From positions 1-64,000 of the forward strand of contig NZ_JAUSVX010000002.1 in assembly GCF_030814995.1 (NCBI RefSeq): 64,000 bases of DNA. The letters are read 5' to 3'. The first letter of the stretch is position 1. The number at the start of each line of letters is the position of its first letter. The notes under the pieces are model-generated. The model was not told where the DNA came from. It did not search any database and saw nothing but the letters and a program-made list of their open reading frames with translations. Source of the DNA: Labrys wisconsinensis (GTDB lineage: Bacteria; Pseudomonadota; Alphaproteobacteria; Rhizobiales; Labraceae). The position numbers were made by a program, and so were the translations under genes. Positions 13,783 through 45,960 of the stretch are shown here, piece after piece.

Positions 13783-13824
13783 GATCGACGAGGGAGCCGC
13801 CGAGCGGCGGCTCCCTCGTCGATC
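13783..13824. terminator. strong bidirectional terminator hairpin
   Basis: Bases 13783-13802 and 13805-13824 are perfect reverse complements (20 bp) around a two-base centre; the inner pairs would open to form a real loop. It lies between the ends of two convergent genes (13767 and 13837), as expected for a shared terminator. There is no long T run on either side. Confidence 0.72.
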
Positions 13825-39326: not shown

Positions 39327-41792
39327 GTGCCATCATTCTCCCGCAGCCTCGAACAGTCCCTCCACCGCGCCCTGGCCGCCGCCAACCAGCGGCGCCACGA
39401 ATATGCCACGCTCGAGCATCTCCTGCTCTCGCTGATCGAGGACCAGGACGCCGCGGCCGTGATGCGCGCCTGCAACGTCGATCTCGACGTGCTGCGCCGC
39501 AACCTGGTCGAATATATCGACACCGAGCTGGAGAACCTGGTCTCCGACGGGCGCGAGGACGCCAAGCCGACCGCCGGCTTCCAGCGCGTCATCCAGCGCG
39601 CGGTGATCCACGTCCAGTCCTCCGGCCGCGAGGAGGTGACCGGGGCCAACGTGCTGGTCGCCATCTTCGCCGAGCGCGAGAGCCATGCCGCCTATTTCCT
39701 GCAGGAGCAGGACATGACCCGCTATGACGCGGTCAACTACATCTCGCACGGCATCGCCAAGCGGGCGGGCCTGTCGGAATCCAAGCCCCCGCGCGGCAGC
39801 GACGAGAGCGAGGGCGAGACGCCCAAGACCGGGCAGGGCGGCGAGGAGGGATCGAAGAAGAAGCAGGATGCGCTCGATGCCTATTGCGTCAACCTCAACA
39901 AGAAGGCGCGCGAGGGCAAGATCGACCCGCTGATCGGCCGCGACCTGGAGATCACCCGCACCATCCAGGTGCTGTGCCGCCGCCAGAAGAACAACCCGCT
40001 GTTCGTCGGCGACCCCGGCGTCGGCAAGACCGCCATTGCCGAAGGCCTGGCGCGCCGCATCATCGAGCGCGACGTGCCGGAGGTGCTGCAGGGCGCGACC
40101 GTGTTCGCGCTCGACATGGGCACGCTGCTCGCCGGCACCCGCTATCGCGGCGACTTCGAGGAGCGCCTGAAGCAGGTGGTCAAGGAGATCGAGGCCTATC
40201 CCGGCGCGATCCTGTTCATCGACGAGATCCACACGGTGATCGGCGCGGGCGCCACCTCGGGCGGGGCGATGGACGCCTCCAACCTCCTGAAGCCGGCCCT
40301 TGCGGCCGGAGCGCTGCGCTGCATCGGCTCGACCACCTACAAGGAATACCGCCAGTATTTCGAGAAGGACCGTGCCCTGGTCCGCCGCTTCCAGAAGATC
40401 GACGTGGCCGAGCCGACCATTGCCGACACGATCGAGATCCTGAAGGGCCTCAAGCCCTATTACGAGGAGTTCCACAAGCTGCGCTACACCAACGACGCCA
40501 TCAAGGCGGCGGTGGAGCTGTCGGCCAAGTACATCAACGACCGCAAGCTGCCGGACAAGGCGATCGACGTGATCGACGAGACCGGCGCCTCGCAGATGCT
40601 GGTGCCGGAGAACCGTCGCAAGAAGTCGATCGGCGTCAAGGAGATCGAGGCGACGATCGCGACCATGGCGCGCATCCCGCCCAAGAGCGTCTCCAAGGAC
40701 GACACGGAGACGCTGCGCAACCTGGAGCTCAACCTCAAGCGCGTGGTCTACGGCCAGGACAAGGCGATCGGCCAATTGTCCTCGGCGATCAAGCTGGCGC
40801 GGGCCGGCCTGCGCGATCCGGAGAAGCCGATCGGCAACTACCTCTTCTCCGGCCCGACCGGCGTCGGCAAGACCGAGGTGGCACGCCAGCTCGCCTCCAT
40901 CCTCGGCATCGAGCTGATCCGCTTCGACATGTCCGAATACATGGAGCGCCACACGGTCTCGCGGCTGATCGGCGCGCCGCCCGGCTATGTCGGCTTCGAC
41001 CAGGGCGGGCTCCTGACCGATGGCATCGACCAGCATCCCCATTGCGTGCTGCTGCTCGACGAGATCGAGAAGGCGCATCCGGACCTGTTCAACATCCTCC
41101 TGCAGGTGATGGACCACGGCAAGCTGACCGATCACAACGGCAAGACGGTCGATTTCAGGAACGTCATCCTGATCATGACCACCAATGCCGGCGCGGCCGA
41201 CCTCGCCAAGTCCGCCTTCGGCTTCACCAAGTCGAAGCGGGAGGGCGACGACACCGAGGCGATCAACCGGCTGTTCACGCCGGAGTTCCGCAACCGCCTC
41301 GACGCGACGATCCCCTTCGCGCATCTCTCCCAGGAGATCGTGTCGCAGGTGGTCGACAAGTTCGTGCTGCAGCTCGAGGCCCAGCTCGCCGACCGCAACG
41401 TCACCATCGAGCTGGCCGAGGACGCCCGCACCTGGCTGGTGGCCAACGGCTATGACGAATTGATGGGCGCCCGCCCGATGGCGCGGCTGATCCAGCAGAC
41501 GATCAAGACGCCGCTGGCCGACGAGGTGCTGTTCGGCAGGCTCAAGTCGGGCGGCGCGGTGCGCGTGGTGGTCACCACGGACGAGAACGGCAAGCGGGCG
41601 CTCGGCTTCGAGTATCCCGACGGCCCGATCGCCCCCAAGCCCGAGCGCGTGGTGGTCGAGGCGACCGCCAAGCCGCGTCGCAAGTCGTACCGGCGGGTGA
41701 AGGTCAAGGGGCAGGCGCTGCTGAGCGGCCCCAAATCGCCGCCGCGGGGTCCGCGAGGCTCGGTGCCCAAGGTGCCGCTCAAGACGGAATAG
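39327..41792 (+). CDS. clpA: ClpA, ATP-dependent protease specificity subunit
   Basis: Hexameric unfoldase that feeds substrates to ClpP; 821 residues. The N domain (about 1-145) contains the paired helix repeat ([20 protein letters not shown]). ATPase domain 1 has Walker [11 protein letters not shown] at 228-237, and domain 2 [10 protein letters not shown] at 509-518, with Walker B and sensor motifs in order ([23 protein letters not shown]). The start GTG at 39327 has GAGGAACTG upstream. The C terminus is extended by about 60 Lys/Arg/Pro-rich residues beyond the usual end ([13 protein letters not shown]), likely disordered. It is next to clpS, its adaptor. Confidence 0.96.
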
Positions 41793-41817
41793 CCGCTTCG
41801 CGGCGAGGAGCGATGCG

Positions 41818-41846
41818 CGGGCGGGCCTGGCCCGCCCGTTGCTTTT
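41818..41846 (+). terminator. intrinsic terminator of clpS-clpA
   Basis: CGGGCGGG (41818-41825) pairs with CCCGCCCG (41831-41838), loop CCTGG, then TTGCTTTT. It lies 26 bases after the clpA stop and has the stem and T tail of an intrinsic terminator. Confidence 0.8.
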
Positions 41847-41938
41847 GGGGAGCGGCGGGGCGGGGGACGCCGGCCCTTGACGGGTGGCCCGCCTCTGGGC
41901 TCTGCATGGGGCGTGCCCGTGCATCCCCGAGGAGCCCC

Positions 41939-43237
41939 ATGCCGTTCGATCTGGTCGTCAAGAACGCCACCCTGCCGGACGGTCGGACCGGCCAGGACAT
42001 CGCCGTCGCCGGCGAGCGGATCGCAGCGGTCGAGCCCGGCATCGCCGCCGAGGCCGGGCGGGTGATCGACGCGGCCGGACGACTGGTATCGCCCCCCTTC
42101 GTCGACAGCCACTTCCATATGGACGCGACGCTGTCGCTCGGGATCCCGAGGCTCAACCAGTCCGGCACGCTCCTGGAGGGCATCGCGCTCTGGGGCGAGC
42201 TGAAGCCGCTCCTGACCCAGGAGGCGGTGGTGGAGCGGGCGCTGCGCTATTGCGACCTGGCCGTCAGCCAGGGCCTGCTGGCGGTCCGCAGCCATGTCGA
42301 CATCTGCGACGACCGGCTGCTCGCCGTCGAGGCGCTGCTGCACGTCAAGGCTGCGGTGAAGCCCTATCTCGACCTGCAGCTCGTCGCCTTCCCGCAGGAC
42401 GGCTATTATCGCTCGCCAAGCGCGGCCCGCAATCTCGACCGGGCCCTCGACATGGGCGTCGACGTGGTCGGCGGCATCCCGCATTTCGAACGGACCATGG
42501 CCGACGGCGCCGCCTCGGTGCGGGCGCTGTGCGAGATCGCCGAGCGGCGCGGCCTGATGGTCGACCTGCATTGCGACGAGAGCGACGACCCGCTGTCGCG
42601 CCATGTCGAGACCCTGGCGGCGGAGGCCCAGCGCCTCGGCCTCGGCGGCCGGACGGTGGGCTCGCACCTCACCTCCATGCATTCCATGGACAATTACTAC
42701 GTCTCCAAGCTGCTGCCGCTGCTGCTGGAGGCGGGCGTGGCGGCAATCGCCAATCCGTTGATCAACATCACGCTGCAGGGCCGGCACGACACCTATCCGC
42801 GCCGCCGCGGCCTCACCCGCATCCCCGAGATGCGGGCGCTGGGCATCCCGGTGGCGCTCGGCCAGGACTGCGCCATGGACCCCTGGTACGGCCTCGGCGG
42901 CGCCGACATGCTCGACGTCGCTCATATGGCGGTGCACGCCGTGCCGATGACCAGCCGCGAGGCGATCCGCTGGAGCTTCGGCGCGGTGACGGCGATCCCG
43001 GCCGCCATCATGGGCCTGGAAGGCTACGGCCTCGAGCCCGGCTGCAACGCCGACTTCGTGCTGCTGCAGGCCGCCGATCCGATCGAGGCGATCCGCCTGC
43101 GCGCCACCCGCCTCGCCGTGGTGCGACGGGGCCGGGTGATTGCCGAGACGCCGCCGCGGCTGGCGCGGCTCGGGTTGGAGGGGCGGCCGACGGGCGTCGA
43201 TCCTGCGGGCTACGCGCCGCGGGTGGCGGCAAATTGA
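41939..43237 (+). CDS. CodA-like amidohydrolase (cytosine deaminase family)
   Basis: Metal-dependent amidohydrolase, 432 residues, close to E. coli CodA over its whole length. Visible landmarks are SHFHMDATLSLGIPRLNQSG (metal His-x-His), LQLVAFPQDGYY, VDLHCDESDDPLSRHVETLA (metal His and catalytic Glu), VGSHLTSMHSMDNYY (His), NPLINITLQGRHDTYPRRRG and LGQDCAMDPWY (metal Asp). CodA has GHDD where this protein has GQDC, so the substrate may be a related amino-heterocycle rather than cytosine. The ATG at 41939 has GAGGAG upstream. No codB-type permease adjoins it. Confidence 0.85.
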   Translation: MPFDLVVKNATLPDGRTGQDIAVAGERIAAVEPGIAAEAGRVIDAAGRLVSPPFVDSHFHMDATLSLGIPRLNQSGTLLEGIALWGELKPLLTQEAVVERALRYCDLAVSQGLLAVRSHVDICDDRLLAVEALLHVKAAVKPYLDLQLVAFPQDGYYRSPSAARNLDRALDMGVDVVGGIPHFERTMADGAASVRALCEIAERRGLMVDLHCDESDDPLSRHVETLAAEAQRLGLGGRTVGSHLTSMHSMDNYYVSKLLPLLLEAGVAAIANPLINITLQGRHDTYPRRRGLTRIPEMRALGIPVALGQDCAMDPWYGLGGADMLDVAHMAVHAVPMTSREAIRWSFGAVTAIPAAIMGLEGYGLEPGCNADFVLLQAADPIEAIRLRATRLAVVRRGRVIAETPPRLARLGLEGRPTGVDPAGYAPRVAAN

Positions 43238-43254
43238 TGGGAGTGTTTTCTAAA

Positions 43255-43295
43255 TGGACCACGGTCCATAGTGTGATAAAATCACACTATGGACC
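43255..43295. promoter_or_regulatory. parDE operator/promoter with nested inverted repeats
   Basis: A perfect 14-bp inverted repeat, GGTCCATAGTGTGA (43263-43276) and TCACACTATGGACC (43282-43295), flanks the A/T-rich TAAAA. The left arm also shares a second palindrome, TGGACC-AC-GGTCCA (43255-43268). Overlapping repeats just before an antitoxin gene are typical of autoregulated toxin-antitoxin operons; the A/T-rich centre (GATAAAAT) could be the -10. Its base composition is poorer in G+C than the surroundings. Confidence 0.75.
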
Positions 43296-43310
43296 GCAAG
43301 GGGAGGAGCT

Positions 43311-43592
43311 ATGTCCGCCACCGAGAAACGTACCTTCAGCCTCCCGACCGAGCAGGCCGCGTTCATCGACCAACTGGTCGCGAAGGGAACCTATGCCACG
43401 AGCAGCGAAGTCATCCGCGCGGGGCTGCGCGCTCTTCAAGAGCGCGATGCGGCGGTCGAGCGGTGGCTCCGCGAAGAGGTCGTGCCTGCCTATGACGAGA
43501 TGAAGGCGCACCCTGAGCGGGCCATTCCTCTCGAGCAGGTCATGGAGGAACTCCGCACTCGCCAGGCCACCCGCATCAAGGGGGGCGTGTGA
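43311..43592 (+). CDS. parD: ParD-type antitoxin
   Basis: Antitoxin of a ParDE-type module; 93 residues. The N-terminal ribbon-helix-helix region (KRTFSLPTEQAAFIDQLVAK, then YATSSEVIRAGLRALQ) is the DNA-binding part, and the C-terminal half (RWLREEVVPAYDEMKAHPER) is the toxin-binding helix. The ATG at 43311 has GGGAGGAG upstream. The end overlaps the toxin start (GTGA) by four bases. It should bind the inverted repeats upstream and repress the operon. The toxin gene is frameshifted, so this antitoxin may now be an orphan. Confidence 0.87.
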   Translation: MSATEKRTFSLPTEQAAFIDQLVAKGTYATSSEVIRAGLRALQERDAAVERWLREEVVPAYDEMKAHPERAIPLEQVMEELRTRQATRIKGGV

Positions 43593-43883
43593 AGGCCCGC
43601 AAAGTCCACGTCTCGCCAGCCGCACGCGTCGATCTTCATCCACGACTGGATCGCCAATGCTGGAAGCCCGGTAAACGCGCTGCGCTTCGTCGAGCGGATC
43701 GGAGCTTTCTGCGCGCGGCTGGAGACGGCTTCGGAGCGAGGACATCGCCGCGACGATATCCGCCTGGGTCTGCGCGTCGTCGGTTTCGAAAAACGCGTCG
43801 TCGTGGCCTTCACGGTCGATGATGAGCGTGTGACCATCCTCCGCATCTTCCGTGGCGGAGTTGATTGGGAACGGGCGCTATGA
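43589..43883 (+). pseudogene. ParE-type toxin, frameshifted
   Basis: The gene begins normally with a GTG overlapping parD and codes KARKVHVSPAARVDL, the ParE N terminus. Near 43635 the frame shifts: the open frame runs on as an unrelated Arg-rich tail to 43822. The true ParE continuation is in another frame (IHDWIANAGSPVNALRFVER, then DDIRLGLRVVGFEKRVVVAF and RVTILRIFRGGVDWERAL) and ends at the TGA at 43881-43883. A gap of a few bases after VDL, net out of frame, would explain it. The joined product would be a complete ParE toxin, a poison of DNA gyrase. As it stands it is probably inactive, unless the shift is a sequencing error. Confidence 0.82.
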
Positions 43884-43902
43884 CCGTTTGTCGTTCTGAA
43901 GC

Positions 43903-45960
<2,058 letters not shown>

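Follow-up and report, generated by a model that had tools for sequence, protein, structure and literature searches.

A parDE module in Labrys wisconsinensis with an intact ParD antitoxin and a frame-broken, probably recently inactivated ParE toxin gene

Whether a type II toxin-antitoxin module that keeps its antitoxin and operator after its toxin has lost its reading frame is simply decaying, or keeps the antitoxin for a purpose, is the question raised by positions 43255-43883 of the 64 kb stretch of Labrys wisconsinensis DNA analysed here (the window). This segment is a parDE module composed of a palindrome, an intact parD and a frame-broken parE, and its features are collected in Table 1. 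A preliminary description had read it as parDE with intact operator repeats and antitoxin and a frameshifted toxin, which the complete ParD frame, the perfect inverted repeat and a ParE divided between two frames now confirm; its coordinates were also correct, with 19 bases between the toxin remnant and the stop of topoisomerase IV parE at 43903. The module is very probably a type II parDE on the chromosome, of CC2985 (Caulobacter ParD4) type and in ordinary toxin-first decay, its toxin having recently been put out of action when the gene became shorter by a few bases.

Table 1. Positions of the parDE module, its parts and its neighbours in the window.
Feature	Position	Strand	Basis
Cytosine deaminase (PRK07572), upstream neighbour	41813..43237	+	PRK07572 match
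Promoter-like pair TGGACC-16-TAAAAT, -10 box within the palindrome	43255..43282	+	consensus scan
Palindrome, 16-base arms and 3-base loop, presumed ParD operator	43262..43296	.	perfect inverted repeat
Shine-Dalgarno-like GGGGAGG 5' of parD	43300..43306	+	seen in sequence
parD, intact antitoxin, 93 aa, CC2985 (TIGR02606) type	43311..43592	+	ORF, Pfam, NCBIfam
parE toxin, 5' part, original frame, GTG start	43589..43636	+	ORF and alignment
Lesion, net five-base shortfall against five intact relatives	43636..43637	+	DNA alignment
parE remainder, second frame, without internal stop	43629..43883	+	Pfam ParE_toxin 5e-10, translation
Topoisomerase IV subunit parE, downstream convergent neighbour	43903..45960	-	Pfam DNA_gyraseB, Toprim, HATPase_c

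The complete ParD frame matched both Pfam ParD_antitoxin (PF03693; 2.5e-8) and NCBIfam TIGR02606 antidote_CC2985 (2.5e-13), each above cut-off, identifying it as the ribbon-helix-helix antitoxin of a ParDE system. The operon is antitoxin-first, the GTG at 43589 overlapping the parD stop codon (43590-43592) in a 4-base overlap. Upstream of parD the arms of the inverted repeat (43262-43277 and 43281-43296) match perfectly, and the palindrome ranks second in length among the perfect inverted repeats of the 64 kb window with arms of at least 11 and loops of at most 10 bases. Its inner 31 bases occur at a single place in the 8.9 Mb genome when up to 3 mismatches are allowed, and its core reads GTGTGA-N5-TCACAC (43271-43287). 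One promoter-like pair was predicted by the consensus scan against a mean of 0.0 in shuffles, the sole such site in 43100-44000. The G+C content of the module is 62.3% compared with 68.9% for the window, and is equally low in 13 of 634 segments of module size. The C-terminal half of ParD, searched with a view to placing its specificity residues on solved ParD-ParE complexes, matched no PDB entry. The longest perfect inverted repeat of the window lies elsewhere, at 13783-13824; its arms are 20 bases and its loop 2 bases long.

The toxin ORF starts with the GTG at 43589, loses register near 43636 and stops at 43822, and this single frame matched no Pfam or NCBIfam family. It is in the second frame (43629-43880) that Pfam ParE_toxin (PF05016) is found, at profile positions 14-89 of 89, with no stop across 84 codons before the stop codon at 43881-43883; no NCBIfam model matched there, and the ORF list held no ATG, GTG or TTG in this frame after parD giving an ORF of at least 40 residues. 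A ParE/RelE-fold toxin in one open frame is thus lacking, PF05016 being matched only in the second frame, and the earlier placing of the frame change near 43635, with the remainder readable to 43883, holds with the lesion at 43636. An intact ParD frame beside a broken toxin frame is the arrangement of an orphan antitoxin, the toxin function being presumably lost, to judge from the sequence.

The size of the lesion was determined by aligning the window DNA with that of five intact relatives, namely four other loci and the paralogue from this genome; a five-base gap is found in the window alone, placed after 43636 with an ambiguity of a few bases. When 45 intact toxins, the paralogue and 44 from relatives, were aligned, none had a gap over paralogue residues 2-98. 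The distance from the start codon to the conserved RG motif is 148 bases in the window and 150 or 153 in 41 of the 49 relatives classed as intact; in the other 8 the motif search returned a lower value or no value, presumably because of an RG further forward or the choice of a wrong open frame. In family terms five bases have been lost net, away from any homopolymer, a pattern unlike that of a base-calling slip.

The state of the remnant bears on the age of the break. Its dN/dS was 0.15-0.27 in four of five comparisons with relatives, the fifth not being computable because of synonymous saturation, and the values for 17 pairs of intact toxins ranged from 0.065 to 0.32. Its profile score is 114.1, the median for the 49 sequences classed as intact being 121.9, and exceeds 9 of these; the lowest score among them (-1.7) presumably stems from open frames picked wrongly. 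Of 30 conserved columns the remnant departs from consensus in 6, including one at the lesion itself; among the 45 intact toxins, 3 depart at six or more conserved columns and 5 at five or more, and decay of the remnant may have begun or the toxin may have been unusual beforehand. The break appears young because the remnant has no stop and a dN/dS like that of intact pairs, and constraint on the toxin would have lasted until recently, possibly followed by some decay. The suggestion of an orphan antitoxin left by a recent frameshift is accordingly supported by the clean remnant frame and by a dN/dS within the range of intact pairs.

In the proposed course of events, parE would recently have lost a few bases net near its beginning, which inactivated the toxin. 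With ParD and its palindrome intact, ParD is probably still made and would repress its own promoter through the palindrome, which lies over the -10 box. Toxin translation would start by way of the overlap with the parD stop, run into the wrong frame and end at 43822, yielding no ParE. The toxin would be the part lost first, as the antitoxin could not be lost while the toxin works and a dead toxin would cost little; it is this order that lethality predicts. ParD would have taken on no new role.

How common such broken toxins are was investigated by a ParD scan of a collection of genomes of 84,980 species, which returned at least 166 relatives, the best 80 of which were kept (L046-L125) and classed by a profile of intact toxins. 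Among these best 80, ParE was intact at 49 loci and not intact at 31, comprising 14 frameshifts, 7 absent toxins (a class by profile, which may conceal a toxin of another family), 5 partial genes, 4 stops and 1 gene without a start. L066, whose sequence ends 211 bases past parD, is poorly determined. ParD had normal length at 29 of the 31 loci, the exceptions being L117 and L118. The positions of the breaks within the toxin vary between relatives, and L064, L092 and L101 carry more than one lesion each. The family core GT(A/G)TGA-N5-TCA(C/T)AC, searched within 100 bases upstream of parD, was found in 67 of these best 80 relatives but in none of 16000 upstream regions after base shuffling, being present at 42 of 49 loci with an intact toxin and at 25 of 31 without. 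GTATGA-N5-TCATAC is the family-wide form of this core; the window variant is altered in both arms with the symmetry preserved, and the same GTGTGA/TCACAC in both arms was found in only 1 of the 67 core-bearing relatives.

Inversely, a mirror test was made in 397 genomes of the order, with the best 30 loci kept per query. Among the best 30 toxin-anchored loci, all 29 other than the window (L127-L155) showed a ParD profile match, which was the sole basis for judging ParD there. With ParD as query in the same order, 6 of 28 toxins were broken, partial or unrecognised (L158, L159, L180, L182, L183 and L185), a count from the best 30 loci that leaves out the window and L162, which lies at a contig end; L179 was counted as intact with a toxin match from profile position 11, and the ParD of L180 gives only a partial match. 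The order includes Mesorhizobium, and L158, from a genome of this order, shares 3273 bases at 100% identity with L054, a Mesorhizobium record among the 80 relatives; L132, a toxin-anchored locus, again represents this same DNA. Fisher tests gave p = 1.7e-5 for 31/80 against 0/29, sets that were drawn differently and contain related, non-independent loci, and p = 0.010 for 6/28 against 0/29, again with related loci that are not independent. At L143, one of the 29 toxin-anchored loci and the same locus as L181, ParD stops a few residues before its usual end and was counted as intact; counting it as broken instead changes the two p values to 2.2e-4 and 0.052. Alone, the decaying pair in the window is of little weight, being one clean toxin-first instance where the state is frequent (31/80 ParD-anchored loci).

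At one Mesorhizobium site, 13 loci (L055, L058, L059, L060, L063, L066, L068, L072, L073, L080, L082, L096 and L101), linked through their flanking DNA by both flanks in 12 cases and by one flank for L066, all keep ParD, with ParE intact in 6 and broken or absent, by differing lesions, in 7. The site provides a natural series of alleles for studying how orphan antitoxins evolve and would permit a direct test of selection keeping orphan antitoxins. Selection on ParD among relatives was approached with eight broken-intact and eight intact-intact pairs chosen by the authors, disjoint within each group, with L050, L068, L082 and L124 occurring in two groups. For ParE, n/s was 0.72 beside breaks, against 0.70 in intact pairs; for ParD it was 0.42 beside breaks, 0.48 in intact pairs and 0.55 in four toxin-absent pairs, with no difference by Fisher test in either gene. 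As the toxin remnants show no difference either, the eight tested breaks look young, too young for n/s to discriminate, and ParD may or may not be kept for its own sake.

The genomic setting was compared with four congener genomes, all of which contain both neighbour genes of the module. The best matches to topoisomerase IV parE are 80-82% identical in all four, with gyrB as a separate gene. The same site in relatives had been proposed for inspection in the preliminary description, and parDE was found beside neither topoisomerase IV parE nor the deaminase gene in the loci of 13-15 kb taken from these four congeners. In one of them (G004) the topoisomerase IV gene and clpA are convergent with about 620 bases between them and neither deaminase nor parDE there, and clpA was not found in the topoisomerase IV loci of G001-G003, making gene order informative from G004 only. 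Set against that G004 locus (L035), window positions 39327-43902 have the deaminase and parDE sitting between clpA and topoisomerase IV parE. The deaminase and parDE accordingly probably entered or moved to this site in this lineage. Of 72,556 plasmid records, 78 matched and none covered 80% of the query, so no recent plasmid source was found among them. Two further parDE pairs lie on contig 3 of the genome. The intact paralogue near 472 kb has a ParD identical to that of the window at 65 of 93 residues (41 of the 50 N-terminal and 24 of the 43 C-terminal ones) and an operator of the same core type; the second and more distant pair lies near 166 kb.

A sequencing or assembly error, with the toxin intact in the living strain, had been offered beside a recent shift in the preliminary description, and of the two the recent shift is favoured. 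The error is improbable: in its favour there is a single assembly in 55 contigs and the remnant frame is otherwise clean, but five bases rather than one are missing, in the absence of a homopolymer, where the 45 aligned intact toxins have no gap, making a one-base slip unlikely. Breaks in the family are also similarly common in isolates (14/33) and metagenome bins (17/47), as sorted by record titles. Ribosomal frameshifting occurs in other genes. Programmed frameshifting giving low-level full-length ParE would fit the open and conserved second frame, yet the product would still be short of residues in the stretch that is free of gaps across the intact toxins, and no conserved shift site is seen, the relatives having their breaks at differing toxin positions; it is extremely improbable.

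A retained orphan ParD with a job, selected either for anti-addiction or for regulating the contig 3 parDE, is compatible with the lesion as described and is unlikely as an account of the module. The intact ParD and palindrome, and the shared N-terminal residues and operator core of the paralogue, would suit such a role, and orphan antitoxins have been proposed as anti-addiction modules (PMC7354431 and PMC7192599). Against it stand the divergence of the C-terminal halves and the description of ParDE paralogues as insulated in PMC7669267 and PMC7354431, the former reporting paralogous ParD-ParE pairs to be highly specific. The change in ParD also shows no difference between broken and intact toxins, nor does that in the remnants, the breaks tested being too young for a decision. 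In a wider form of this idea, CC2985-type modules at fixed chromosomal sites would frequently and recently have lost their toxins while ParD and mostly the operator stayed, ParD perhaps being the selected part (anti-addiction or regulator) and the toxins cycling between broken and restored; this too seems rather improbable. Ordinary toxin-first decay is preferred.

The module resembles ParDE4 of Caulobacter crescentus (CC2985/CC2984, so identified in PMC9851616) in that its ParD belongs to TIGR02606, a family named after CC2985. According to the same paper, C. crescentus parDE4 is likewise antitoxin-first but has genes overlapping by 21 bases compared with 4 here, and is active in biofilm cell death, whereas the toxin gene is broken here. 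Another parDE locus of C. crescentus, whose parE is a pseudogene (PMC7354431), likewise has ParD beside a dead ParE, 'technically' an orphan, in another genus. In Shigella flexneri Orf176/YacB the antitoxin was also kept and the toxin ended by a frameshift, although the orphan Orf176 is from another system and is reported to be a type III secretion substrate (PMC7354431). In the Klebsiella pneumoniae complex many antitoxins lack a working toxin, and a considerable share of these lie in their original context (PMC7192599); that was a survey of sequences within one species complex as opposed to one lesion and its age here. Orphan antitoxins are reported to be abundant, and anti-addiction or regulatory roles for them are discussed, in PMC7192599, PMC10790755 and PMC12654330, the last listing ParD1_3_4 among them. 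The window module is a further instance of this known kind. The passages of the cited papers gave no figure for a broken ParE beside a CC2985-type ParD, which may exist in print.

Some minor observations concern the surroundings of the toxin. The part of the toxin after the lesion shares the frame of parD (window 43590-43883, after the parD stop and about 12 codons), and read-through of that stop would yield a ParD-ParE fusion without the toxin start, probably a matter of chance (one frame in three). A functional link with the adjacent topoisomerase IV parE was considered and rejected as a coincidence of gene name, the ParE toxin and the topoisomerase IV subunit ParE having only a gene name in common. 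A second GyrB-like fragment is listed for none of the four congeners; at contig 1:1232058-1232567 of genome G000 (in L023), a 222-codon frame encodes a fragment of a GyrB-like ATPase domain immediately 5' of gyrB and in the same orientation.
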